From assembly GCA_019752335.1 (NCBI GenBank), contig JAIEMJ010000048.1, forward strand, positions 1 through 64,000: a DNA stretch of 64,000 nt. The letters are read 5' to 3'. Source of the DNA: Bryobacteraceae bacterium. GTDB taxonomy: Bacteria; Acidobacteriota; Terriglobia; Bryobacterales; Bryobacteraceae. The position numbers and the translations under genes were made by a program. The notes under the pieces were generated by a model. It saw nothing but the letters and a program-made list of their open reading frames with translations. It had not been told where the DNA came from and made no database searches. Below are positions 1,993 through 63,133 of this stretch, piece by piece; within the stretch, counting starts at the first letter, position 1, and each line of letters begins with the position of its first letter.

Positions 1993-2603
1993 GGCGCCAA
2001 CCTCTCCCGCACCCACGCACCGGCGGCAAGCCGGTACCGCAGCCGGTCGTGTAGCCGGCAGGGCCGGCCCTGCCAAAACTCGAACTCCGAAACCCGTACG
2101 CGGAACCCGCCCCAATTCTCCGGCAAAGCCACCTCCCCTTCTCCCATCGAAGCCAACCGCGACTCGAGCCACGCCCGATCCGGAATCACCTGGCTCTGAG
2201 GCGAGATCGCCGCACCCATCTGGCTCCCTGGCGGCCGCGACCGGAAATACGCCAAAGTCTCCTCCCGCGATATCCTCGCGGCTGTACCGCGAATTCTCAC
2301 CTGCCGCTCCAGCTCCCGCCAAAAAAACAGCAACGCGACGCACGGGTTCGCCTCAATCTCCCGGCCCTTCGCGCTCTCGTAGTTCGTATAAAAAACGACG
2401 CCATCCGGCGAATAGCCCTTCATGAGCACAATCCGTGCATTCGGTGTCGCCGTAGCTAACGTCATCGCGTTCGGCTCCCGCAGCCCGGCGGACACCGCCT
2501 CTTGAAACCAAGACTCAAATTGCACCCAGGGGTCCGACGATGCCGCGTCCTCCAACAGGCCTCCGCGCGTGTAACTCTCCCGTAAGAGGGCGAAATTGTC
2601 CAT
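1989..2603 (-). CDS. pdxH: pyridoxamine 5'-phosphate oxidase
   Basis: A 204-aa FMN-dependent oxidase that converts pyridoxine or pyridoxamine 5'-phosphate to pyridoxal 5'-phosphate in the cytosol. Family signatures are clear: NARIVLMKGY and VFYTNYESAKGREIE (FMN and phosphate contacts), FFWRELERQVRI, RSRPPGSQMGA..SPQSQVI, and the C-terminal WGGFRV...FEFWQGRPCRLHDR block. The ATG at 2603 starts the conserved region. No Shine-Dalgarno is visible, but TAGTAT lies 8 nt upstream, so the transcript may be leaderless. The stop overlaps the lolA-like start. Length is normal to slightly short for the family. Confidence 0.93.
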   Translation of the reverse strand: MDNFALLRESYTRGGLLEDAASSDPWVQFESWFQEAVSAGLREPNAMTLATATPNARIVLMKGYSPDGVVFYTNYESAKGREIEANPCVALLFFWRELERQVRIRGTAARISREETLAYFRSRPPGSQMGAAISPQSQVIPDRAWLESRLASMGEGEVALPENWGGFRVRVSEFEFWQGRPCRLHDRLRYRLAAGAWVRERLAP

Positions 2604-2655
2604 ACTTCGATATACTAAAGGTTCCGATCCATTTGCGCGAGGAGTTCTACTTTTT
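2604..2655. promoter_or_regulatory. Divergent promoter region pdxH / PPIase
   Basis: Only 52 bp separate the divergent starts. On the minus strand TAGTAT (plus-strand 2612-2617) ends 8 nt before the pdxH ATG. The same AT-rich spot reads TATACT (2611-2616) on the plus strand, towards the PPIase gene, whose AGGAG ribosome-binding site is at 2640-2644. No clear -35 hexamers were found. Promoter assignment is an inference. Confidence 0.4.
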
Positions 2656-4593
2656 ATGTTCGATCTGTTTCGCCGGCGCGACACTGCCGTGCGGTATTTG
2701 CTAGGTGGCGTTCTGCTCATGATCGCCCTCTCGATGGTGGTCACCCTCATCCCCGGCTTCGGCTCCGCTACCCCTGGCGACGACCGCTCCGATACCGTCG
2801 CCAAGATTGGCGATGAGAAGGTGAGTGTGCGGGAAGCCATCGCCAGCATCCAGAATGTTATGCGCCGTCAAAACGTTCCGCCCGCCGCCGTCAAAAGCCT
2901 CGTCGACAATTTCATTGATTCCATGATCTCGAGCCGCGTGATGGCCCTCCAAGCCAGCAACCTGGGCCTTGGCCTCTCCGATAAGGACCTCGCCGAAACC
3001 ATCCGCTCCCGCGTGCCCCAGCTCTTTCCCAACGGCCAGTTCATGGGCCGCCAGGCATACGAAAACTTCCTCGCGCAGAACGGCATGAACGTCGCCGAAT
3101 TCGAAAGCAACGTCCGCCGCAGCATCGCCGTCGAGCGCATGGGCAAGATGATTGAAGACAGCGTCGTCGTCACCGATAACGAACTACTCGCCGAGTACCG
3201 CGCCAATAATCAGAAAGCTAAGATCGAATACATCTCCCTCGCCGAAGACGCCTACCGCGACTCCATCAAGCTCACTGACGCCGAGCTAAAGGCCGTTTAC
3301 GACAAGGAACCGTCGGCCTTCCAACATCCCGTGCGCTATAGCTACAGCGTCGTCATTCTCGATGAAGCCCGCACCGCGATGCTCTTCCCCGTGAACGACA
3401 ACGACCTCAAAAAACTCTACTCTTCCACGCAGGACAAGTACCGCTTACCCGAGCGCCTGAAGGTCCGTCACATCCTGATCAAGACCACCGAGAAGTCGCC
3501 CGCCGACCTCGCCAAGGCCCAGACCCTGGCCGCCGACGTCCTCAAGCAAGTGAAGGCCGGTGGCAACTTTGCGGAGCTCGCCAAGAAATATTCCGACGAC
3601 CCCGGCAGCAAAGCCAACGGCGGTGACCTCGGCTTCATTGTCCGCGGCCAGACCGTGAAAGATTTCGAAGCCTCGGCCTTCTCGCTCAAGCCCAACGAGA
3701 TTTCGAATCTGGTGAAGACCGAATTCGGCTACCACATTCTGCAATTGCTCGAACGGCAAGAGCCCCGGTTGCAGCCTTTCGAAGAAGTCCGCGACCAACT
3801 CAAGGCTGAATATAACAAAGACTCGGCCGGGGCCAAACTCAACGCCAACGCTGACGCCGCTCGCGCTGAATTAATCAAGTCACCCAGCCAGGCGGAAGCC
3901 ATTGCCTCGAAATATGCCGGCATCCTCATCACTGCCGACAAAACCGACCAGCGCAAACTTGTCGAAGGAGGCCTCGGGCAGAATGCGCAAGACGTCTACG
4001 GCGCCCTCACCTCACTCAAGAAAGGCGAAGTGGGATCCACCATCAATTTGCCCAACGCCCGAATCGCAATTCCGATCCTGCGCGATACCCATCCTCCGAG
4101 CGTCATGACGTTCGAAGAAGCCCGCGAAGCCATTCGGCAAAGCGAAATAACCAAGCGCAGCACCGAGATGTTCAACCAGAAATTTACGGCCTTCTCCCTG
4201 GCTGCCAAGGCCCCGAACGCCGACTTCGCCGCCCTCGCGAAGACCTACAGCGCTGAGACGAAGACTCCTGCTGAATTCGGGCGCACCGGTTTCATCGAAG
4301 GTCTCGGCTCCTCCAGTGCCTTCGTCGAGGCTTTCAGTGCTCCGCTCAATGCGGTGCAAGGGCCGGTCTCCTTAGACCGCAAGCGCGTCTTCTTCCGCGT
4401 TAAGGAACGCAACGAACCTGACATGGGTAAGTTCGCCAGCGAACGTGCTGGCCTTGTCGACAAGCTTCGTCAGAAAAAGGCTCGCGAACGCATGGACCTT
4501 TTTGAGGCCGGCCTGATCGAAGAACTCATGCGCAAGGGCAGCGTCAAGGTCTACGAAGACGCCCGTCAAAAAGTCGTCGCCGCGTTTAACTAA
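2656..4593 (+). CDS. Membrane-anchored SurA/PpiD-type peptidyl-prolyl cis-trans isomerase
   Basis: A 645-aa periplasmic foldase of the PpiD/SurA type. Residues ~14-36 form one N-terminal transmembrane anchor after a short basic cytosolic tail. A SurA_N-like helical region follows. A parvulin (PPIC) domain spans ~267-372, with the typical RHILI start, the SDDPGSKANGGDLGF core and the EFGYHILQL end. The C-terminal third looks like a degenerate second parvulin region plus helical arms. The ATG at 2656 is chosen because AGGAG lies 11 nt upstream and the anchor starts there; an earlier in-frame start would overlap pdxH. PpiD is usually the closest family for this anchor-plus-one-parvulin layout. 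Confidence 0.85.
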   Translation: MFDLFRRRDTAVRYLLGGVLLMIALSMVVTLIPGFGSATPGDDRSDTVAKIGDEKVSVREAIASIQNVMRRQNVPPAAVKSLVDNFIDSMISSRVMALQASNLGLGLSDKDLAETIRSRVPQLFPNGQFMGRQAYENFLAQNGMNVAEFESNVRRSIAVERMGKMIEDSVVVTDNELLAEYRANNQKAKIEYISLAEDAYRDSIKLTDAELKAVYDKEPSAFQHPVRYSYSVVILDEARTAMLFPVNDNDLKKLYSSTQDKYRLPERLKVRHILIKTTEKSPADLAKAQTLAADVLKQVKAGGNFAELAKKYSDDPGSKANGGDLGFIVRGQTVKDFEASAFSLKPNEISNLVKTEFGYHILQLLERQEPRLQPFEEVRDQLKAEYNKDSAGAKLNANADAARAELIKSPSQAEAIASKYAGILITADKTDQRKLVEGGLGQNAQDVYGALTSLKKGEVGSTINLPNARIAIPILRDTHPPSVMTFEEAREAIRQSEITKRSTEMFNQKFTAFSLAAKAPNADFAALAKTYSAETKTPAEFGRTGFIEGLGSSSAFVEAFSAPLNAVQGPVSLDRKRVFFRVKERNEPDMGKFASERAGLVDKLRQKKARERMDLFEAGLIEELMRKGSVKVYEDARQKVVAAFN

Positions 4594-43212: not shown

Positions 43213-44217
43213 CTACAGGCGTCCGGCTCCCAGGCCACCTAGACGGCAGGAACGGCAGACGCCAAAGCCAGAACCATTGGAGCCGATGAAGTTGCAGAGT
43301 TGGCGCAGGCGGTCCGCCTCACCGGGGCTCAACTGCCCTCCAGAGAAGGGGACTTCGGTGGTCGCCAAGGTGCCCGGCGTAGCGCCAGCGTGGACCTTGG
43401 TACCCCAAGCGGTGATGCTGCGGGAGAAGGTGGCCAGCGCCGCGGCCGAGCCTTGGCAGGAGCCAGCCACGGGCGGCGAAGCCACCAGCTTCACGACGAT
43501 CGACGTCGGTACGGCTGGTGTAAGCGTGTTGCTGATCAGGTCGCGTTGAACGGAAAGCGAAACCAGTCCGTTGGGGGTGACCGGGCAGGAGCAGCAGGAG
43601 ACCATCTGCTCATCCGGCGAGAAAGCATAAACGTTAGCGCAGATGGCGCCGGTGGTAGCGGCCGTGGTGCCGGCGGCGAGTCCGGCGCCGTCGCTGCCGG
43701 GGTTCGTGAGGTTGATGACGCTATCGGCGACGTTCAGGTTGGGGAAATAGCTCACGAGAAACGGGGCTGGATCCGTGATGGTGATGGTTGCGGCGGCGGC
43801 GGCGCCCGGCGCGGTGTTGTTCGCGGTGATCGTCGAGGTGGTGTTGACTTTCACGCCCGGCGTAGCGGACACGACGTTCACCGTGATGGTGCAGGTCACC
43901 CCTCCACCCAAAGTCCCGATCAGCACGCTGATGTTGGTAGCGCCCGCCGCGGCAGTCACTGCGCTGAGGCACGAGGAGGTAACTCCGGGCGGATTGGCCA
44001 CGCTCATGCCCGCGGGTAATGGGTCACTGAAAGAAACGTTGGTGAGGGCGAACCCCTGGTTTGGGTTGAAGGCCCGGAAGGTGAGCACCGTCACCGCGCC
44101 AACGGGCGCCGTGAGTGTGCCAAAGCCTTTGGTCAGTTGTGGACTTTCGACGTTGCTACCGAAGCACAGCGAGGGCAGTGCGACGAGGAACAGAACGGCT
44201 TGATGGCGTTTGCGCAT
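43213..44217 (-). CDS. Secreted DUF11-like repeat protein
   Basis: A 334-aa exported protein with a signal peptide (~1-20). Residues ~25-150 resemble the DUF11/conserved-repeat beta domain often found in bacterial surface proteins (LTFRAFNPNQGFALTNVSFSDPLPAGM). The middle is Ala/Thr-rich. The C-terminal part has several Cys residues (MVSCCSCPVTPNG, GSCQGS, CNFIGSNGSGFGVCRSC) that could form disulfides or bind metal. No enzyme domain was recognised. The ATG at 44217 precedes the signal peptide; upstream frames are spurious. Confidence 0.65.
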   Translation of the reverse strand: MRKRHQAVLFLVALPSLCFGSNVESPQLTKGFGTLTAPVGAVTVLTFRAFNPNQGFALTNVSFSDPLPAGMSVANPPGVTSSCLSAVTAAAGATNISVLIGTLGGGVTCTITVNVVSATPGVKVNTTSTITANNTAPGAAAAATITITDPAPFLVSYFPNLNVADSVINLTNPGSDGAGLAAGTTAATTGAICANVYAFSPDEQMVSCCSCPVTPNGLVSLSVQRDLISNTLTPAVPTSIVVKLVASPPVAGSCQGSAAALATFSRSITAWGTKVHAGATPGTLATTEVPFSGGQLSPGEADRLRQLCNFIGSNGSGFGVCRSCRLGGLGAGRL

Positions 44218-44490
44218 ATTTTTTCCAGTCCCCGCAGTATGCCCGAGGCTTAGCAATTTTCGTAGGCCCAATTTCAGCAGAAATAGTACCTGTAGCCCGA
44301 GCCCTGAGGATGATTTCGTTCCTGGCCGTCCTGGAGCCTTCGATGCGACGGCGCAAGGCGGAAGTTCCAGTCGCAGTGTGGCCGTTTCCAAGTCCCTTTC
44401 GCGCTAAGGAACACGAGGGTGCTAATTCGTGTAAGCTTAGGCTGTTCTTGATTGGCGCCCGAACCATGCTTGTTCCAGGAGAAGTTTTCC
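44218..44490. other. 273-bp divergent intergenic region
   Basis: This gap separates the DUF11-like gene (leftward) from the cytochrome/ankyrin gene (rightward). Beyond the AGGAG ribosome-binding site at ~44477 for the rightward gene, I see no convincing promoter, riboswitch or repeat. The leftward leader is long (>150 nt) and contains several short complementary stretches; a structured leader is possible but not shown. Confidence 0.35.
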
Positions 44491-46713
44491 ATGCGCTTGA
44501 CGATTCTGCCCCTGTGGGGCGCTCTCGCTTTGGCCCAGAGTACGCCTCGGGTCGACTTTGAAAAAGAGGTCCAGCCGATTCTGGCGGAAAAGTGCCACTC
44601 CTGCCACGGAGCCGAAGTACAGCAGAGCGGCCTGCGGCTCGACAAGCGCCAGAACGCGCTGCGAGGCGGCGATTACGGACCCGTCATCGTCCCCGGCAAA
44701 AGCGCCGAAAGCAAACTGATCAAGCGCCTGGTGAATGGCGACGGTGGCCTGCAGATGCCCCCGAGTGGAGCCTTATCTGACGAGGAAATCGCCAAGCTGC
44801 GCACCTGGATTGACCAGGGGGCGGACTTCCGCATCACGGTGACGGACGAAGCTCCCGCCGCGCCGGTGGACCCGCAGCTAGCGGCCTTCATCGCCGCCAC
44901 GCGCGCCAGCAATCTGACGGTGATGCGTCAGATGATCGCCGCGCAGCCTAAGCTCGTTTCGGCGCGCGATAGCGCCCAATCGACGGCATTGCATCATGCG
45001 GCAGGCTTCGGTACGTTAGCGGCGGTGAAACTGCTGCTGGAGAGCGGCGCCGAGGTGAATGCCACGAATCAGCGGCGATCCACGGCACTGCATTGGGCGT
45101 TACCGGACGAAGCCAAGGTCCGCCTACTGGTGGCGCACGGGGCGAAGCTGAATGCGCTAACTTCCGATGGACGGTCACTCGTCTATCAGGCTGCTTCGAT
45201 GGCCAACGCGACGCCGCTGCTGCGCTATCTGCTGGAACAGGGCGTCGCCGCCGATGGCAAGACCGCCAATGGCGGCACGCCGCTGATGGTGGCGGCGCGC
45301 CGCGCGGATTTGTCCGCGATGCGCGCTTTGCTTGAGAAAAACGCCAACGTCAACGCGAAGAATGCGGCGGGCGGCACGGCTTTGATGGCCGCGGCTGCAA
45401 CGGGCAATCCGGCCGCCGTCCGGTTGTTGCTGGAAAAGGGCGCGGCGGTGAACGAGCGCACCAAACGCAACGAGACGGCGCTGGCCGACGCCGCTACCGC
45501 GGGCAACGAAGAGACGGTGAAGCTGCTGCTGGATGCGGGCGCCGAAGTGAATGTGCGGGATGTGCGGGGCTATTCGCCGCTGCTCTACGCCGCCGCTTCC
45601 GACACCATGCCTACCGGTGTGGTGAAGATGCTGCTGGCCAAGGGCGCCGACGTAGAGGCGAAGGGCGACGGCGAAACGGCGCGTCAACTGGCCGCCAAAC
45701 GTGGTGACTCCGAGGTCGCGCGCCTTTTGGGAGTGCCGGCGGAGGAGCGTCGCCGCTTGGGCGTCGCAGCGTTGCCGGAGGGCAGCGGCCAAGCGCGAGC
45801 CATACCGATGGCGGTGACCCCGGCTCTGGGGTTGCTCGAAAAGCAGAGCCATAACTTCATCCGCATCGGCGGCTGCAACGCCTGCCACGCGCAGGACCTG
45901 CCTTCGGCCGCCGCCGCCGTGGCGCGCGACCGCGGCATTCCCGCGCCGCGGACGATTCCGCAGCTTTCCGCCCAGATGCAGGGCAGCAGCGCGGAGCGGC
46001 TGATGGACCTGAATAGCTTCGGCGTCGCCAGTTTGGGTTGGGAGCTCTTCGACTTCGGGATGAACCGCATCCCGCGCGATGCCTACACGGATGCGGTGGT
46101 GCGCTTCGTGCAGGTCTCGCAGTCGGCCGAGGGACATTGGGTGGCGCTCGAAAGCCGCCGGCCGCCGATGAATTCCGGTTCGTTCCAAAGCACGGCGCTG
46201 GCGGTGTATATGCTCAAACACTACGGCCGCCCGGAAGAGTCCGCGGCCAACGCCGCCCGCATCGCCAGGGCTGCGGCGTGGCTCGAAGGAAACCGGGCCA
46301 GCCAGACGCAAGATATGGCCTTTCGCCTGCTGGGACTCGCATGGTCGGGCGGCAACGTCGCGCCGGCCGCGAAGGATCTCGCCGCCGCGCAACGCGCCGA
46401 CGGCGGATGGAGCCAACTCGCCACCATGGGCTCGGACGCCTATGCCACCGGCGAAGCGCTCTACGCCCTGAATGCGGCGGGAGGCCTGCCCGTGACAGGC
46501 GCGGTGTATCAGAAGGGCGTGAAGTACCTGCTACGGACGCAAGCCCCGGACGGCAGTTGGCACGTGGCGTCGCGCTCTATCTGGGTGCAGCCTTACTTCG
46601 AAAGCGGCTTCCCCTACGGACACAACCAGTGGATCTCGGCGGCGGGCACAAGTTGGGCCGCGATGGCGCTATCCCTCGCAGTGGAGCCCCGGCGTCTGAG
46701 CCTGGTGCGTTAG
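44491..46713 (+). CDS. Cytochrome c / ankyrin / terpenoid-cyclase-like fusion protein
   Basis: A 740-aa exported protein. A short signal peptide is followed by a planctomycete-type cytochrome c domain (~15-110) with CHSCH (haem CxxCH) and LQMPPSGALSDEEIAKL. Residues ~130-425 form eight or so ankyrin repeats (TALHHAAGFGTLAAVKLLLESGAEVN-like units). A second haem motif, GGCNACH, lies near residue 467. The last ~230 residues look like an alpha/alpha-barrel of the prenyltransferase/squalene-cyclase fold, with QW-like motifs AQRADGGWSQL and QAPDGSWHV but no DxDD acid motif. AGGAG lies 9 nt before the ATG. Function is unknown; probably a periplasmic redox scaffold. Confidence 0.8.
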   Translation: MRLTILPLWGALALAQSTPRVDFEKEVQPILAEKCHSCHGAEVQQSGLRLDKRQNALRGGDYGPVIVPGKSAESKLIKRLVNGDGGLQMPPSGALSDEEIAKLRTWIDQGADFRITVTDEAPAAPVDPQLAAFIAATRASNLTVMRQMIAAQPKLVSARDSAQSTALHHAAGFGTLAAVKLLLESGAEVNATNQRRSTALHWALPDEAKVRLLVAHGAKLNALTSDGRSLVYQAASMANATPLLRYLLEQGVAADGKTANGGTPLMVAARRADLSAMRALLEKNANVNAKNAAGGTALMAAAATGNPAAVRLLLEKGAAVNERTKRNETALADAATAGNEETVKLLLDAGAEVNVRDVRGYSPLLYAAASDTMPTGVVKMLLAKGADVEAKGDGETARQLAAKRGDSEVARLLGVPAEERRRLGVAALPEGSGQARAIPMAVTPALGLLEKQSHNFIRIGGCNACHAQDLPSAAAAVARDRGIPAPRTIPQLSAQMQGSSAERLMDLNSFGVASLGWELFDFGMNRIPRDAYTDAVVRFVQVSQSAEGHWVALESRRPPMNSGSFQSTALAVYMLKHYGRPEESAANAARIARAAAWLEGNRASQTQDMAFRLLGLAWSGGNVAPAAKDLAAAQRADGGWSQLATMGSDAYATGEALYALNAAGGLPVTGAVYQKGVKYLLRTQAPDGSWHVASRSIWVQPYFESGFPYGHNQWISAAGTSWAAMALSLAVEPRRLSLVR

Positions 46714-56529: not shown

Positions 56530-57366
56530 ATGCGTCTTCTCCTGTTCATTCTCCCTGCTCTGCTGCTCGCAGCCAACGATCCCAAAAAAGAAAGCTGGCT
56601 TCGCCTCTTCAATGGCAAGAACCTGAAGGGGTGGACACCGAAGATTACCGGCTATGCGCCTGGCGAGAATTTTGGGAAGACCTTTCGGGTCGAGGACGGC
56701 ATTCTGAAGGTCCGCTACGACGCCTACGATGCCTTCAATGAGCGCTTTGGCCATCTTTTCTACAAGGACAATTTTTCCTACTACGTCATCGCCGTGGAGT
56801 ACCGCTTTACGGGCGAACAAGCCAAGGGCGGGCCCAATTGGGCGCTGCGCAATAGCGGCATCATGATCCACGGCCAGCCCGCGGCCAGCATGACCAAGGC
56901 GCAGGACTTTCCCGTCTCTATCGAGGTCCAGCTACTCGGCGGCAATGGCAAGGATCCTCGCACCACGGCGAACCTGTGCACGCCGGGTACGAATGTCGTG
57001 CGCAATGGCCAGCTCTTCACGCCTCATTGTCTGAATTCGACGTCGCAGACCTATGCGGGTGAGCAGTGGGTACGGGCCGAGGTCCGCGTGTTGGGCAATG
57101 AGCGTATCGAGCATCGCATCAATGGTGAGCTAGTGCTCGCTTATGAGCGGCCCCAACTCGGCGGGGGAAATGTGAAAAACGCGCTGCCGGCCTATACGGA
57201 AGCCGGTAAGTTACTCAGCGAAGGTTCTATTTCTTTGCAGAGCGAAAGTCATCCGGTAGAATTTCGCAAAGTCGAGTTACTCAATTTGAAGGGCTGCATG
57301 GACCCGAAGGCGAAGAACTTCAAGAGCTACTTCGTCAAAGCCGACAACACTGCCTGTAAGTTCTAG
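56530..57366 (+). CDS. DUF1080 (3-keto-disaccharide hydrolase-like) secreted protein
   Basis: A 278-aa exported protein with a short signal peptide (MRLLLFILPALLLAAND). The DUF1080 fold, a concanavalin-like beta sandwich, is shown by WLRLFNGKNLKGWTPK at the start, FRVEDGILKVRY, ALRNSGIMIHGQ, and the end strand VEFRKVELLNLKGC. Such proteins are common in Acidobacteria and Planctomycetes and some hydrolyse 3-keto-glycosides. The ~15-residue C-terminal extension with two Cys (GCMDPKAKNFKSYFVKADNT then ACKF) may form a disulfide. Confidence 0.87.
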   Translation: MRLLLFILPALLLAANDPKKESWLRLFNGKNLKGWTPKITGYAPGENFGKTFRVEDGILKVRYDAYDAFNERFGHLFYKDNFSYYVIAVEYRFTGEQAKGGPNWALRNSGIMIHGQPAASMTKAQDFPVSIEVQLLGGNGKDPRTTANLCTPGTNVVRNGQLFTPHCLNSTSQTYAGEQWVRAEVRVLGNERIEHRINGELVLAYERPQLGGGNVKNALPAYTEAGKLLSEGSISLQSESHPVEFRKVELLNLKGCMDPKAKNFKSYFVKADNTACKF

Positions 57367-58146: not shown

Positions 58147-59505
58147 CTAGAGCGACAAATGTTCGATGCGGCCGGTGGAGTCGCCGATGGTTTCGGGCTT
58201 TACTCCCATGCGATCCAGCAACGACAGGTAGAGGTTCGTCATCGGGGTGCGCGAGGCGTACTTAATGTGGCGGCCGCCTTGCAGAGTGCCACCGCCGCCG
58301 CCGGCGACCAGCACCGGGAGGTCGTGATGATCGTGCCGGTTGCCGTCCGAGAGACCGCTGCCGTACACCACCATCGAATGATCCAGGAGGGTGCCATCGC
58401 CGTCCGGCGTCTTGGCGAGTTGGCCCAGGAAGTAAGCGAAGAGCTCCGCGTGCAGGACGTTGATCTTGGTGATCTTCTCAATCTTCTCCTCGGCGTTCAA
58501 GTGGTGCGAGAGGCCGTGGTGCGCTTCGGAGACGCCGATGGAACGGTAGGTGCGGTTAGAGCCTTCGCGGCCGATCATGAAGGTCATCACGCGGGTGAGG
58601 TCGGCGCGCATGGCGGCTACCTGCAGGTCAAACATGAGCTTGGCGTGCTCTTCGAACGTGACCGGGATCCCGGCGGGCTTGTCGAGGGAAGGAGTCTGGT
58701 CCCGGCCGCCGCTGGCCGCTTGCTTCTCCGCGTCAGTGATGCGGCGTTCAATCTCGCGCAATGAGTAGAGGTACTCTTCGAGCTTGCGCTTGTCAGCGCC
58801 ACCGAGATTGGCTTGCAAGCCGCTGGCGTCGCCGCGGATGGCGTCGAGGATGCTCTTATCCTGGCGCGCCATCACGGCGCGGGTGTGCGGATCGAAGCTT
58901 TCGCCATCGCCGAAGAGGCGCTCAAAGACGGCGCGCGGATTGATCTCGGGAGGCAGCGGCGTGGTGGCGCTGCGCCAGGCGATTGAATTCGAGTAAGCGC
59001 AGGAGTAGCCGGAGTCGCAGTTGCCTACCATCCCGGAGCTTTCGAGGCCCAACTCAAGCGACGCGAAGCGCGTCTGCCGGCCGATCGCCTCGGCGGCGAC
59101 CTGATCCACGGACGGCGCCAGCAGGATGTCCGCGCCTTCGGTCTTCTTGGGATGCACGCCGGTGAGGAAGGAGGCGGCGGCGCGAGCATGGTCACCGGGG
59201 CCATCGCCGAGGGCTTGGCCGTTCTTGTGCGCCAAACCGGAGAGCACCAACATCTGCTGGCGATAGGCGGCCAGCGGCTGCATCACGCGCGAAAGTTCGT
59301 AGCTCTTGCCTTCGCCGGTGGGCGTCCAGGCGGGCATGATGATGCCGTTGGGGACGTAACAGAAGGCGAGGCGGCGCGGGGCGGCGGCGGTCACCTTGTT
59401 GGCCGCGAAAGCGGGCGTCATCGCGTCGAGCATCGGGAGGGCGACGCCCAGGCCGAGGCCGCGCAAGAGGGTCCGGCGATCAAGTGACTTACGGGTGACG
59501 AACAT
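58147..59505 (-). CDS. DUF1552 protein (exported, Tat-type)
   Basis: A 452-aa protein of the DUF1552 family, relatives of sulfatase/phosphatase-fold DUF1501 proteins. The N-terminus RRTLLRGLGLGVALPMLDAM is Tat-like, and the body has AFCYVPNGIIMPAWTPTG, VLSGLAHKNG, HARAAASFLTGVHPKKT and DHSMVVYGSGLSDGNRHDHH. It nearly always pairs with a DUF1592 cytochrome, as here, where the two overlap by 17 nt. The biochemical role of the pair is unknown. Confidence 0.9.
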   Translation of the reverse strand: MFVTRKSLDRRTLLRGLGLGVALPMLDAMTPAFAANKVTAAAPRRLAFCYVPNGIIMPAWTPTGEGKSYELSRVMQPLAAYRQQMLVLSGLAHKNGQALGDGPGDHARAAASFLTGVHPKKTEGADILLAPSVDQVAAEAIGRQTRFASLELGLESSGMVGNCDSGYSCAYSNSIAWRSATTPLPPEINPRAVFERLFGDGESFDPHTRAVMARQDKSILDAIRGDASGLQANLGGADKRKLEEYLYSLREIERRITDAEKQAASGGRDQTPSLDKPAGIPVTFEEHAKLMFDLQVAAMRADLTRVMTFMIGREGSNRTYRSIGVSEAHHGLSHHLNAEEKIEKITKINVLHAELFAYFLGQLAKTPDGDGTLLDHSMVVYGSGLSDGNRHDHHDLPVLVAGGGGGTLQGGRHIKYASRTPMTNLYLSLLDRMGVKPETIGDSTGRIEHLSL

Positions 59506-61792
59506 TCTTTACCTCGCTTGAACTAACGGTAACCGCCCGCCGCATTTGAAACGGCAGGCTTTCAACAATACCGAGTACCAGGCTCGAGAAACGGTAGTCT
59601 TCCCGAGACAGATTTCGACTTATTAATCTTACTACGGGCTTGTCCGCCCGTTCCAAACCCCGGCCCAGCGCATAAGTGAGCAGCTTTTCGGTGAGACAAC
59701 CGACGAACTCTTCTTCGCGCCCGCGCAGCAGAGCCTTCAGGTCGGCGGCGCCATTGAGCGGCTGGCCGTTCAGCGTGCCTGAAGGGTCAATGGGGAACTT
59801 ACCGTCGTGCGTGCGCCAGCGGCCGATGGCGTCGTAGTTTTCGAGCGCGAAGCCGATCGCGTCCATGCGCGTGTGGCAGGAGGCGCAAGCCGGGTTACTC
59901 CGGTGTTGCTCCAACTGTTGCCGCATGGAGGCGGTGGCGCCGATCTCTTCGGTCTTAAGTTCGGGCACATTCGGCGGCGGCGGTGGTGGCGGCGCGGCCA
60001 GGAAATTCTCCAGAATCCATTTGCCGCGAATTACGGGCGACGTCCGCGTAGGATAAGAGGAGACCGTGAGGATGCTGCCCTGCGTGAGTACGCCGCTGCG
60101 CTGATTGCCCGTTAAGGCGACTTTCCGGAAACGCGATCCAGTCACTCCGGGGATGCCGTAATACTTGGCGAGCCGCTCGTTTAAGTAAGAGAAGGGCCCG
60201 TCGAGAAAGTCGAGTACGCTGCGGTCTTCGCGAACCACGGCTTCAAAGAATAACTCGGTTTCTCGCCCCAGGCTTTCCCGTAACTCGGTGTCGAATTCGG
60301 GGAATTTATCCGGGTCCGGCTTCATTTGCGGCAGATTGCGTAAGTGCAGCCATTGTCCGGCGAAGTTACTCACCAGCGCCCGGGACTTACTATCGGCGAG
60401 CATCCGCTTCACTTGCGCGCGCAAGATACTGGGCTCGTGCAATTTCTTTTGGATGGCCAGCGTGAGTAACTCGTCGTCCGGCAGGCTACTCCACAGGAAG
60501 AACGAGAGGCGAGAAGCCAGATCCAAATCCGCCACCCTTTCCATCGCGACTTCGCCCACCTTCATCGGCGTACCGGCGCGCTCCGAGCGAAAGAGGAAAT
60601 TCGGCGACACCAGCATCGACTTCAGCGCTAGCTGCACGCCGGCATCGAACGTACCGCCGTCCTGGCGGCCCATGCGGAAGAAGCGCATCAGCGAGGCCGT
60701 GTCGGCGGGCGTCACTGGCCGGCGATAGGCTTTGCGCGCTAAGTTCGACAGCAGCGATTGCGCGCACGCCTCGGTCTGCGCTTGGCAGGTAAAGATGCGT
60801 TGGCGGCTGGGACTGTTGAGATTTGGCTTGGGATTGAAGGGTCCGCCGATCTCGACAAAGTCGACATTCAGCAGCTTCGGCGCGGCGTCCTCGGTCTTCC
60901 AGGTCTCTTCCAGAAACGTGATTGCGACCTCATGGCGGCCGGCGGTGACGGGCACGCGCAGTTCGAAACGGCGCTTCTCTTCTTCCTCTTCCTCCATGCT
61001 GATCGGCGTCTCGAAGAGCTTCAGGCGCGCACCGTCCAGGCGCAGATCCAGCAGGGGGGCGGGGATCGTCTTGTCGAACTGGCCCGAGAGCCGGATGCGC
61101 AGTAGATACTCGCCGTCGGCCGGGAAGCGATGCTTCACCACCAAGCCGCCGCGCGTACCGAAGGGAAGGTCGTCGCTGATGCGGCCCCGTTGCGAACGGC
61201 GCTTATCGGCGGAGTATCTGTCGAGCGCGGGCGTGATCTTCACCAGGCCCAGCGCCTGGCGCGAAACTTTACCGGCCGCGCTGAGATACTTCTCCATCAA
61301 CAGTGGCGGCAACGAAAGCACGTCGGCAATGTTGTCGAAACCATAGCCGGCATCGTCGGCGGGGAAATCGTCGGCGGGAGTGAAGTCCACGGCGAGCAGG
61401 TCGCGTACGGCGTGGTTGTATTCGGTGCGATTCAGGCGGTGGATGGTGATGCGGCCCGGGTCGGGCCGCAGGGCGGCCAAGCGGTCCAACTCGGTTTCGG
61501 TCCAAGTGGTGAAGACGTTGCGTGCGGCGGGAGCGGGCTTGGGAAAGCCGGTAGGCGGCATCTCGCCGGTCTTGACCTTGTGCAGAATCTTCTCCCAGGC
61601 GTCGGCGTTGGTGGTGAGCGAGGCGGCCGAAGTAAGTGGCTCCACGGAAATGCCACCGGTTTTATTCTGCGCGTTGTGGCAGCCCTGGCAATTACGCGTC
61701 AAGAAAGGGCGAATGGAAGACGAAAAGGGGTCGCCTTGCTGTGCCAGCAGCCAGCTTCCACTGACAAGAATCAAACTAAGGTAACGTTTCAT
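59489..61792 (-). CDS. DUF1587/1592/1588/1585 multidomain cytochrome-like protein
   Basis: A 767-aa exported protein with a signal peptide (~1-18). A cytochrome-c-like segment has NCQGCH (one haem motif) and KVKTGEMPPTGFP. Then come DUF1587 (IHRLNRTEYNHAVRDLLAVD), DUF1595, DUF1592 (LASRLSFFLWSSLPDDELL), DUF1588 (QRSGVLTQGSILTVSSYPTR, CASCHTRMDAIGFALENYDA) and DUF1585 at the C-terminus. The CASCH motif may bind a second haem. This architecture is typical of Planctomycetes, Verrucomicrobia and Acidobacteria. The ATG at 61792 lies 24 bp from the divergent ankyrin gene start. Confidence 0.92.
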   Translation of the reverse strand: MKRYLSLILVSGSWLLAQQGDPFSSSIRPFLTRNCQGCHNAQNKTGGISVEPLTSAASLTTNADAWEKILHKVKTGEMPPTGFPKPAPAARNVFTTWTETELDRLAALRPDPGRITIHRLNRTEYNHAVRDLLAVDFTPADDFPADDAGYGFDNIADVLSLPPLLMEKYLSAAGKVSRQALGLVKITPALDRYSADKRRSQRGRISDDLPFGTRGGLVVKHRFPADGEYLLRIRLSGQFDKTIPAPLLDLRLDGARLKLFETPISMEEEEEEKRRFELRVPVTAGRHEVAITFLEETWKTEDAAPKLLNVDFVEIGGPFNPKPNLNSPSRQRIFTCQAQTEACAQSLLSNLARKAYRRPVTPADTASLMRFFRMGRQDGGTFDAGVQLALKSMLVSPNFLFRSERAGTPMKVGEVAMERVADLDLASRLSFFLWSSLPDDELLTLAIQKKLHEPSILRAQVKRMLADSKSRALVSNFAGQWLHLRNLPQMKPDPDKFPEFDTELRESLGRETELFFEAVVREDRSVLDFLDGPFSYLNERLAKYYGIPGVTGSRFRKVALTGNQRSGVLTQGSILTVSSYPTRTSPVIRGKWILENFLAAPPPPPPPNVPELKTEEIGATASMRQQLEQHRSNPACASCHTRMDAIGFALENYDAIGRWRTHDGKFPIDPSGTLNGQPLNGAADLKALLRGREEEFVGCLTEKLLTYALGRGLERADKPVVRLISRNLSREDYRFSSLVLGIVESLPFQMRRAVTVSSSEVKNVRHP

Positions 61793-61816
61793 CACGCGTA
61801 AACTATCTTATAGATG
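61793..61816. promoter_or_regulatory. 24-bp divergent start region with two overlapping -10 elements
   Basis: Rightward TATCTT (61804-61809) ends 7 nt before the ATG at 61817. Leftward TAGTTT (plus-strand 61800-61805) ends 7 nt before the ATG at 61792. Both transcripts would have to be leaderless or nearly so, and both -35 regions would lie inside the opposite coding sequence. Confidence 0.45.
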
Positions 61817-63133
61817 ATGACGTTCGCACGTACGCTGCTGGTTATTCTCCTCGCGATTATTTCCTTGGATGCCGCCGAATTACTAGACGCGGCCAGGGAA
61901 GGCGACGCGGCGAAGGTGAAAATCCTACTGGCGAAGCAGGCTGCGGCGAACGAGAGCCTGCCGGACGGCACCACGGCACTTTCCTGGGCGGCGCATGAGG
62001 GCCACTTGGCGGTGGTTGAGCTATTGCTCGCCGCCGGGGCCGACGCCAAGAAGCAGACGGAAAACGGCGACACGCCTCTGACGCTCGCGGCCCTGCGCGG
62101 CCACGGGGCGGTGGTGGAACGACTGCTGAAAGCCGGCGCCTCCGCCACCACGACGCGTTGGAACGGCGAAACCGCCCTGATGACCGCGGTGCGAGGTGGT
62201 AGCCGGGTGGCCGTTGACGCGTTGCTCGCGGCCGGCGCGGACGTGAAGCCGCGCGAGAACCGGCTCGGCCAGTCCGCGTTGATGTGGGCCGCCGCCGATG
62301 GCCGCGTGGAGATTCTGCAGAGTCTCGTGCGCGCTGGTGCGCCGCTCGAAGAGCGTTCCAAGGCCGGCGCCACAGCGCTGATGATGGCCGCGCGGCATGG
62401 CCAGGCCAAAGCCGTCAGCGCGCTGCTGAAGGCGGGGGCGGCGGTCAGCGCCGCGACCCCGGAGGGCCGCGATGGCCTCTTTCTCGCAGCAAATTACGGC
62501 CACGCCGCCGCGGCGATTGCGCTGATTGAGGCGGGCGCGAACATCCAGAGCCAGGACGAAAAGGGCACCACGATTCTGCATTTGGCGGCTCGCAGCGGCA
62601 AGGCGGACCTGGTAAGTCTGCTGATCGCCAAGGGTGCGCCCGTCAATGCCCGGCTGAAGCCCGCGTCGCTCGACGCGAATCCCGCCCGCCGTTTCACCTA
62701 TGGCCGGGACCTCGCCACGCCCCTTTTCGAAGCCGCCGAGACGGGCAACGAGGCCGTGGTGCTAGCGTTGCTGAAGGGCGGCGCCGATCCGAACCTCGCC
62801 ACCGCCGACGGCGCCACGCCGTTGCTACCCGCGGCTTTCGGCAACTTCCTCTTGAATAACCAGCTCTTTCCGAAGTTGGCCAACGCGCAGTTGCCGGTGG
62901 TGAAGGCGCTGGTGGAGGCCGGGGCCAACGTCAACGCCGCCACGCAACGCGGCATGACGGCGCTGCATCTGGCCGCTTCGCGCGCCGGTGACGATGTGGT
63001 CCGCTACCTGGTCGAGCACGGCGCGAAGCTCGACGCAAAGGATGCTCGGGGGTCGACACCGCAGGCTACAGCGGAGAGTCGCGGCGCGAAGGTCACGGCG
63101 GCGCTGTTGCGGGAGTTGGCGGCGAAACGCTAG
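61817..63133 (+). CDS. Exported ankyrin-repeat protein
   Basis: A 438-aa protein with a signal peptide (~1-19) and about eleven ankyrin repeats covering nearly all the mature chain, with the usual GDTPLTLAALRGHGAVVERLL and TALHLAASRAGDDVVRYLV patterns. It should form a solenoid for protein binding in the periplasm. It is divergent from, and possibly coregulated with, the DUF1552/DUF1592 pair. An ATG at 61814 is an alternative start. Confidence 0.88.
   Translation: MTFARTLLVILLAIISLDAAELLDAAREGDAAKVKILLAKQAAANESLPDGTTALSWAAHEGHLAVVELLLAAGADAKKQTENGDTPLTLAALRGHGAVVERLLKAGASATTTRWNGETALMTAVRGGSRVAVDALLAAGADVKPRENRLGQSALMWAAADGRVEILQSLVRAGAPLEERSKAGATALMMAARHGQAKAVSALLKAGAAVSAATPEGRDGLFLAANYGHAAAAIALIEAGANIQSQDEKGTTILHLAARSGKADLVSLLIAKGAPVNARLKPASLDANPARRFTYGRDLATPLFEAAETGNEAVVLALLKGGADPNLATADGATPLLPAAFGNFLLNNQLFPKLANAQLPVVKALVEAGANVNAATQRGMTALHLAASRAGDDVVRYLVEHGAKLDAKDARGSTPQATAESRGAKVTAALLRELAAKR

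Follow-up and report, generated by a model that had tools for sequence, protein, structure and literature searches.

The dihaem proteins CcpA and MauG pair a relay haem with a reaction haem whose site is open. The polyisoprene dioxygenase RoxA has two c-type haems, one of which binds oxygen, and its structure is described as related to that of the bacterial cytochrome c peroxidases (PMC6797691). In Pseudomonas aeruginosa, the periplasmic ankyrin-like protein AnkB is reported to be needed for optimal activity of the catalase KatB (PMC3091734). The account of the PSCyt genes that we consulted calls their functions wholly unknown and puts forward carbohydrate metabolism as a possible field of action (PMC5615132). 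Here, we analyze a gene at positions 44491–46713 (forward strand) of a 64,000-nucleotide stretch from a Bryobacteraceae bacterium (assembly GCA_019752335.1, contig JAIEMJ010000048.1, positions 1–64,000), referred to as the window. The gene encodes a PSCyt1 cytochrome c domain, ankyrin repeats, and a terpenoid-cyclase-like α/α barrel bearing a second CxxCH motif. A literature search by titles and abstract openings found no published description of this combination. We tentatively propose, at somewhat less than an even chance, that it is an exported two-haem redox protein, in which the barrel haem acts on a bound substrate and the PSCyt1 haem serves as the electron relay.

Domain architecture of the fused protein

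The intact reading frame encodes 740 residues counted from its ATG; an alternative in-frame TTG start at 44452 would extend the protein to 753 residues. An earlier sequence-only reading had described an N-terminal cytochrome c domain, about eight ankyrin repeats, a second CxxCH, and a cyclase-like barrel. Pfam, structure models, and fold searches confirmed this order, with eight to nine ankyrin repeats:

44491..46713, +, whole gene, PSCyt1–ankyrin–CxxCH-barrel (reading frame and Pfam scan)
44491..44538, +, probable Sec signal peptide, residues 1–16, MRLTILPLWGALALAQ (hydropathy; cleavage site placed by our own judgement)
44548..44826, +, PSCyt1 cytochrome c domain, residues about 20–112 (PF07635, E 3.9e-17 over residues 35–93)
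44593..44607, +, first haem c motif CHSCH, residues 35–39 (family alignment)
44755..44757, +, M89 of MPP, inferred as the likely sixth ligand of haem 1 (32/32 aligned rows)
44872..45762, +, eight to nine ankyrin repeats, residues 128–424 (Pfam, AlphaFold2 model, fold search)
45802..46680, +, terpenoid-cyclase-like α/α barrel, residues about 438–730 (model, fold search, profile matches)

The N-terminal domain belongs to PSCyt1, with a PF07635 match of 63 bits against the Pfam cut-off of 22 and with both CxxCH and MPP in place. The residues of this CxxCH are nearly invariant in the family alignment (C35 in 33/34, C38 in 34/34, and H39 in 32/32 rows). The 740-residue protein contains four cysteines, every one of them inside a CxxCH motif (residues 35–39 and 462–466). 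Among 20,000 shuffles of its residues, at least one CxxCH arose in 11 and two arose in none. The protein is probably exported, as judged solely from the hydropathy of its short hydrophobic N-terminus.

The ankyrin families reached E-values down to 7.1e-42 in the Pfam scan. In the full-length AlphaFold2 model, ankyrin helices pair up between residue 128 and about residue 412, and residues 128–424 match known ankyrin structures (6mol, Z 26.9, root-mean-square deviation (r.m.s.d.) 1.9 over 285 aligned residues); a fold search with the full-length model returned a match list filled by ankyrin structures. The mean predicted local distance difference test (pLDDT) score of this model was 72.5, with the cytochrome region poorly modeled; the input to all structure predictions was limited to six sequences. 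An assembly or frame artefact as the origin of the fusion could be ruled out, as the identical domain order recurs across many genomes.

The C-terminal barrel is related to type II terpene cyclases

The C-terminal region, modeled on its own (307 residues, pLDDT 78.2, predicted template modeling score 0.82), is predicted to fold into the α/α barrel that had been read from the sequence. Its helices span residues 5–26, 36–47, 68–73, 79–91, 98–109, 131–145, 148–167, 173–186, 191–199, 217–229, 238–249, and 284–296 in the numbering of the barrel model. Type II terpene cyclases match this model from end to end with Z scores of 22.2–22.6, namely 8zgv (Z 22.6, r.m.s.d. 3.2, 259 aligned), 8pak (Z 22.3, r.m.s.d. 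3.5, 268 aligned), and 2sqc (Z 22.2, r.m.s.d. 3.3, 264 aligned). Terpene cyclases also rank first in Foldseek (8pak, E 1.9e-6), where template modeling scores by query length lie between 0.51 and 0.60 for the first 25 rows. At the sequence level, the single barrel sequence matches solved terpene cyclases weakly (best E 1.2e-6), and a profile of 14 relatives matches squalene-hopene cyclase strongly (E 2.6e-24). The barrel retains three QxxxGxW (QW) motifs:

46120..46140, +, QW motif 1, Q544–W550
46390..46410, +, QW motif 2, Q634–W640
46540..46560, +, QW motif 3, Q684–W690

Glycosidase barrels come next in the fold search, together with a complement C4 fragment (Z 18 to 20.4). The glycosidase matches (3k11, Z 20.4; 3pmm, Z 19.8; 4xuv, Z 19.1) could point to a module that oxidizes or cleaves sugars or glycans, as suggested for other PSCyt proteins, with a saccharide bound in the manner of GH105 or GH76 and the haems taking up the electrons. 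The carbohydrate role suggested for PSCyt genes (PMC5615132) and a 3-keto-disaccharide hydrolase at 56530–57366 of the window are in line with such a function. However, both the sequence profile and the top fold scores favor terpene cyclases over glycosidases, and no neighboring protein cluster recurs next to the fused gene in at least 4 of the 24 loci plus the window. We therefore regard a glycan-directed module as unlikely.

Despite its fold, the barrel has lost the hallmark of an acid-catalyzed cyclase. As the sequence-only reading had stated, the DxDD motif is missing: the pattern D.DD is absent from the window protein and from 80/80 barrel rows, which were cropped around a CxxCH and include duplicates, with one row (L045) dropped. 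A possible stand-in acid remains:

46312..46314, +, D608, acidic (D/E) in most relatives, candidate equivalent of the cyclase acid motif (hhalign; 70/73 aligned rows)

In the hhalign comparison, the DIDD of the genome's own cyclase was aligned to a TQD stretch of the barrel family (probability 97.3, E 2.7e-11), so that an acid at an analogous place in the barrel is possible. Counted along the order of the QW repeats, the lost acid motif would fall one or two helices earlier than TQD.

A type II terpene cyclase that still works by means of a changed acid motif, with the haem as an incidental feature, has to be weighed. D/E608 and the three retained QW motifs speak for it, as does the barrel of a second copy in the same genome (L002), which passes Pfam SQHop_cyclase_N with 39.8 bits against the cut-off of 26.2. 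The barrel of the window protein itself stays below the cut-offs of both SQHop_cyclase_C (17.7 bits, cut-off 26.1) and SQHop_cyclase_N (17.8 bits, cut-off 26.2). The loss of D.DD, the glutamine at the position of the middle acid in 44/73 aligned rows, including the window protein, and the probable export all argue against a cyclase, and the genome encodes a separate, true squalene-hopene cyclase elsewhere (C10:150334-152220, 594 bits, cut-off 431.1). We consider cyclase activity highly improbable.

The second CxxCH motif is an integral part of the barrel

The second haem c motif and the most conserved loops of the barrel are located as follows:

45874..45888, +, second haem c motif CNACH, residues 462–466, between barrel helices 1 and 2 (72/72 distinct rows spanning the site)
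46159..46167, +, conserved R557-P558-P559 loop (R557 in 66/72, P559 in 70/72)
46435..46437, +, conserved D649 (61/72)
46573..46638, +, conserved loop R695...Q700-P-Y...SGFP...(D/N)QxIS, residues 695–716 (72-row counts)

The second CxxCH had been placed exactly at the junction between the ankyrin repeats and the barrel. Our analysis locates it inside the barrel instead, at model residues 29–33, after the first helix (5–26) and before the helix 36–47, and it accompanies the barrel in every architecture observed. A role as a linker between ankyrin repeats and barrel was ruled out, as the motif is present in barrels without ankyrin repeats in front. Both cysteines and the histidine are kept in 72/72 distinct barrel sequences that span the site, in a collection whose profile was built from 14 rows, all motif-bearing, and whose list of relatives also required the motif, with the loci fetched by similarity only; of the 80 distinct rows, 8 that do not cover the motif were excluded, three of them being pieces of the genome's true cyclase (L105). 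An additional relative, L156, has CX3CH in place of CxxCH and retains all three residues.

The CxxCH segment, when compared as a profile with solved protein chains, found c-type haem sites, among them those of cytochrome c555 and of dihaem peroxidases, although weakly and with EGFR alongside. The best match was a threefold-linked cytochrome c555, in which the whole chain reached E 3.8e-7 and each copy 11.6 bits (E 1.6), followed by a dihaem peroxidase (E 0.0052) and EGFR (E 0.18) in the same list. The segment of the window protein matched no family in Pfam. Such weak similarity would also suit a metal or thiol site, which would leave the barrel as a ligand-binding domain behind a single electron-carrying haem. 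Yet the histidine is fixed along with both cysteines, the CX3CH variant keeps all three, the protein is probably exported, and a cytochrome domain is fused or adjacent, making a metal or thiol site very unlikely.

The requisites of a c-type cytochrome, namely CxxCH, probable export, and maturation genes, are all found. The genome contains three Cytochrom_C_asm matches over the cut-off, one of them in a 698-residue frame, and a search for ResB in the genome found none, which fits a maturation system of the CcmF/CcmC type. We judge it likely that the barrel binds haem.

Conservation extends well beyond the motif. In the loop 695–716, R695 is kept in 68/72, Q700 in 64/72, Y702 in 63/72, Q713 in 67/72, and S716 in 67/72 rows. 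Among 44 non-redundant rows, the three QW motifs, D649, R557-P-P, R695, Q700-P-Y, SGFP, and Q713-x-I-S are kept in most or almost all cases. In the model, CxxCH, RPP, D649, and the R695–S716 loop appear to share one end of the barrel, each at a passage from an outer to an inner helix, where inner and outer were assigned by alternation from the helix order. In cyclases, the acid used in catalysis is found at this end of the barrel, which is also where the substrate cavity opens.

Fused, split, and reversed arrangements among relatives

The fused gene turned out to be one of four arrangements of the same parts: (A) the full fusion, (B) adjacent PSCyt1-ankyrin and CxxCH-barrel genes, (C) ankyrin-CxxCH-barrel, and (D) CxxCH-barrel-ankyrin. 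We assigned 98 barrel-bearing frames, taken as distinct, using a simple pattern to count ankyrin repeats and with the window gene counted twice (again as L106, one of the frames cut at the 5' end). These comprise 40 full fusions, 20 ankyrin-barrel genes, 11 barrel genes closely preceded by a separate gene for PSCyt1, 4 reversed barrel-ankyrin genes, 9 entries of barrel alone, 6 others, and 8 frames cut at the 5' end. The nine entries of barrel alone consist of five fragments, two divergent rows, L140, and L142, which has only 53 bases upstream.

The split arrangement is the central finding. In close relatives, eleven of the twelve barrel-only genes that could be assessed come immediately after a PSCyt1+ankyrin gene on the same strand (L085–L091, L093–L095, and L141), where the assessable set leaves aside L092 and L142, which lack upstream room, and the divergent L063, L064, and L125–L129. 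The upstream proteins contain PSCyt1 and ankyrin by Pfam in all nine that were scanned (PSCyt1 E 5.6e-12 to 2e-17), and the pair of L141 was assigned by our own profile and pattern. The spacing between the two genes varies between a slight overlap and some tens of bases; in L087, read by eye, they lie at 2200–3492 and 3502–4482. The twelfth gene, L140, lies behind an ankyrin gene that lacks PSCyt1 and encodes an N-terminus resembling a signal peptide. Because the barrel-only genes stand directly behind PSCyt1+ankyrin genes, the window gene represents the fused state of a gene pair.

A tree of 92 rows, midpoint-rooted beside divergent rows, places the split L085–L087 and L088/L089 just outside a fused clade of 37 rows (100/97), within a clade of 42 rows (100/100). 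The split L091/L141 branch outside another clade of 13 rows (99/91), which is fused where judgeable. Fusion of the two genes, or the reverse event, thus occurred on at least two occasions, with the tree rows L106, L024, L114, L142, L054, and L092, cut or unassigned, inflating the counts of changes. Recurrent fusion of two genes is a usual sign that their products work together, and the repeated joining seen here suggests that the PSCyt1-ankyrin part and the CxxCH-barrel are probably functionally coupled. The sequence-only reading had named no described function for this combination; its domain order stands, but the fusion is not singular, being one arrangement of recurring parts that also occur as a two-gene pair.

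The same domain order was found in many genomes of the taxonomic order and in a few elsewhere in the phylum. An order-wide search gave a barrel match at E ≤1e-3 in 193/257 genomes, the weak end of which (E about 1e-4) may include other barrel proteins. A hand count among the matches listed gave 44/257 genomes in which an open frame of at least 650 residues matches at E ≤1e-80. In a spread of genomes from the phylum, 20/297 matched at E 1e-3 and, with the profile, 19/396 at E 1e-20. Named relatives include Bryobacter, Bryobacterales, Terriglobia, 'Acidobacteria' metagenome-assembled genomes (MAGs), and one Pedosphaera MAG. The latter, labeled Verrucomicrobiota, contains a close subfamily member (L024, 59% barrel identity) near the start of a contig, which may reflect transfer or mis-binning. 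In the phylum of this MAG, 2/288 genomes have a match, its own included; L160 is a barrel match in that phylum. No relative was found among the viral contigs searched.

The paralogue L002 (G000:C23:20097-21353; L002:1483-2838) has the ankyrin-CxxCH-barrel arrangement without PSCyt1. Genes with the reversed order on the + strand (L059/L102, L062, L121, and L156) group together in the tree (99/99). L063, L064, and L125–L129 are very divergent CxxCH-barrels from other families of the phylum, with CxSCH or CxGCH.

A putative exported two-haem redox protein

The proposal of an exported protein with a relay haem and a reaction haem builds on what was observed, namely the domain order, the predicted barrel fold, the two CxxCH motifs with their conservation, and the equivalence of split and fused genes; its further steps are inferred from these. 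The PSCyt1 haem, ligated by His39 and Met89, would act as a low-spin electron relay, and the ankyrin stack would serve both as a spacer and as an arm for docking. C462, C465, and H466 would carry the second haem at the mouth of the cavity, where the inner barrel helices start. Among the 68 of the 72 rows that carry R695, H466 is fixed and is the only histidine column of the barrel at ≥60%; the highest methionine columns reach 0.60 (646) and 0.72 (725), and Y702 reaches 0.93. As no second histidine or methionine is conserved throughout the barrel family, the sixth site of this haem is probably open or weakly held. Together with this lack of ligands, the near-invariance of numerous polar loop residues at that barrel end speaks for chemistry over a plain relay. 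The haem could then carry out the chemistry, whether oxidation, oxygenation, or reduction, on a molecule that the conserved loops (R557-P-P, D649, R695, QPY, SGFP, and Q713) would hold, exchanging electrons in either direction with the PSCyt1 haem. In relatives, such a relay would be a separate adjacent subunit, or would be absent and supplied from elsewhere.

A redox-linked role other than cyclization, as the sequence-only reading had suggested, is the most likely reading, with haem binding standing as a prediction. That the barrel haem is used enzymatically is plausible, though slightly less than probable. Whether the protein further represents a new class of haem c enzymes, in which a cyclase barrel gave up acid catalysis for haem redox chemistry through a CxxCH at the cavity mouth and is fed by a PSCyt1 relay across an ankyrin arm, is more doubtful still; standalone, split, fused, and reversed versions occur across several Acidobacteriota families.

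Several observations weigh against the two-haem enzyme. In the barrel model, confidence is lowest in the loops of the putative site (pLDDT <50 at model residues 25–33, 59–69, 122–128, 262–278, and 302–307), and therefore the model does not fix the geometry of the pocket. The absence of the cofactor from the model could explain these low values, for which the shallow alignment is an equally good reason. The 36-row close fused subfamily keeps H454 (0.89), M496 (0.97), M560 (0.94), M646 (0.89), M725 (0.92), K675 (0.94), and Y702 (1.00), so that a sixth haem ligand is possible within this subfamily. R557 is absent in 6/72 and R695 in 4/72 rows, among the most divergent relatives L063, L064, and L125–L129; by eye, these also lack a QPYFESGFP-like stretch and retain CxxCH. 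Within the 0.7–1.3 kb upstream of these divergent genes there is no cytochrome gene, and they have no ankyrin repeats, which argues against a pairing in all relatives. Finally, classes C and D lack PSCyt1, including the second copy in this genome (L002), and the PSCyt1 relay is thus not essential to the barrel.

The candidate ligands of the fused subfamily (H454, M496, M560, M646, M725, K675, and Y702) would equally suit an electron relay, or a gas or redox sensor, that performs no chemistry, with the barrel as a scaffold and the ankyrin repeats docking a partner enzyme. Close relatives carry ankyrin repeats in, or beside, the barrel gene, and no enzyme gene is conserved next to the fused gene in 24 loci plus the window, both of which agree with a relay or sensor. 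On the other hand, the barrel loops are conserved far beyond the needs of a scaffold, and across the 68 wider rows there is no conserved histidine or methionine ligand. We judge a relay or sensor without chemistry to be rather unlikely, though the strongest of the rival readings.

If the barrel does carry haem, a fold known for acid cyclization would have turned into a redox domain and would offer a new scaffold for haem chemistry. The barrel-only gene, being small and separable from its cytochrome partner, also provides a handle on the abundant PSCyt proteins.

Gene neighborhood and genome context

A conserved operon around the fused gene was rejected. When neighbors were clustered at E 1e-15 and half coverage, no other protein cluster was present in at least 4 of the 24 loci plus the window; the L023 copy left the family cluster, which therefore holds 23 loci plus the window. 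The divergent upstream neighbor (43213–44391, −) encodes a DUF7933 protein, whose cluster is not found in ≥4 of the relatives' loci. A scan for promoters and terminators found none.

Elsewhere in the window, a DUF1552 (HXXSHH) gene (58147–59505, −) overlaps a PSCyt1/PSD2-5/PSCyt3 gene (59489–61795, −). The latter stands back to back with a gene for an ankyrin-only protein (61814–63133, +), so that cytochrome and ankyrin genes adjoin once more. The 7.2 Mb genome has 46 PSCyt1 matches, all above the Pfam cut-off, and 14 control genomes have 0.

Comparison with known systems

The N-terminal domain is a clear member of the planctomycete cytochrome c family PSCyt1 (PF07635). The usual partners of PSCyt1 are described as other PSCyt and PSD1-5 domains (PMC5615132), whereas the window protein combines it with ankyrin repeats and a haem-barrel. 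The main text of that paper contains neither ankyrin nor squalene, and the architecture found here is not mentioned in it.

With the type II terpene cyclases, such as squalene-hopene cyclase, drimenyl diphosphate synthase, and MstE, the window protein shares the predicted barrel fold, the QW motifs, and homology at the profile level. It differs from them by the absence of DxDD, the probable export, and the addition of a CxxCH before the first inner helix.

A likeness to AnkB and KatB, compared by description only (PMC3091734), lies in an ankyrin protein that serves a haem enzyme; there, however, the two are separate proteins, and the enzyme is a catalase rather than a haem-barrel.

RoxA/RoxB, CcpA, and MauG offer a hypothetical functional likeness, by analogy, in the division between a relay haem and an open-site reaction haem. 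Chains of cytochrome c peroxidases match the window protein weakly and at the CxxCH segment only (E 0.0052 and worse), and the C-terminal model is a cyclase barrel. Compared with RoxA, the second haem motif of the window protein lies in an unrelated α/α barrel, and the tests made indicated no homology. As an analogy, RoxA would nevertheless be the closest working model for a protein that pairs a relay haem with a reaction haem.

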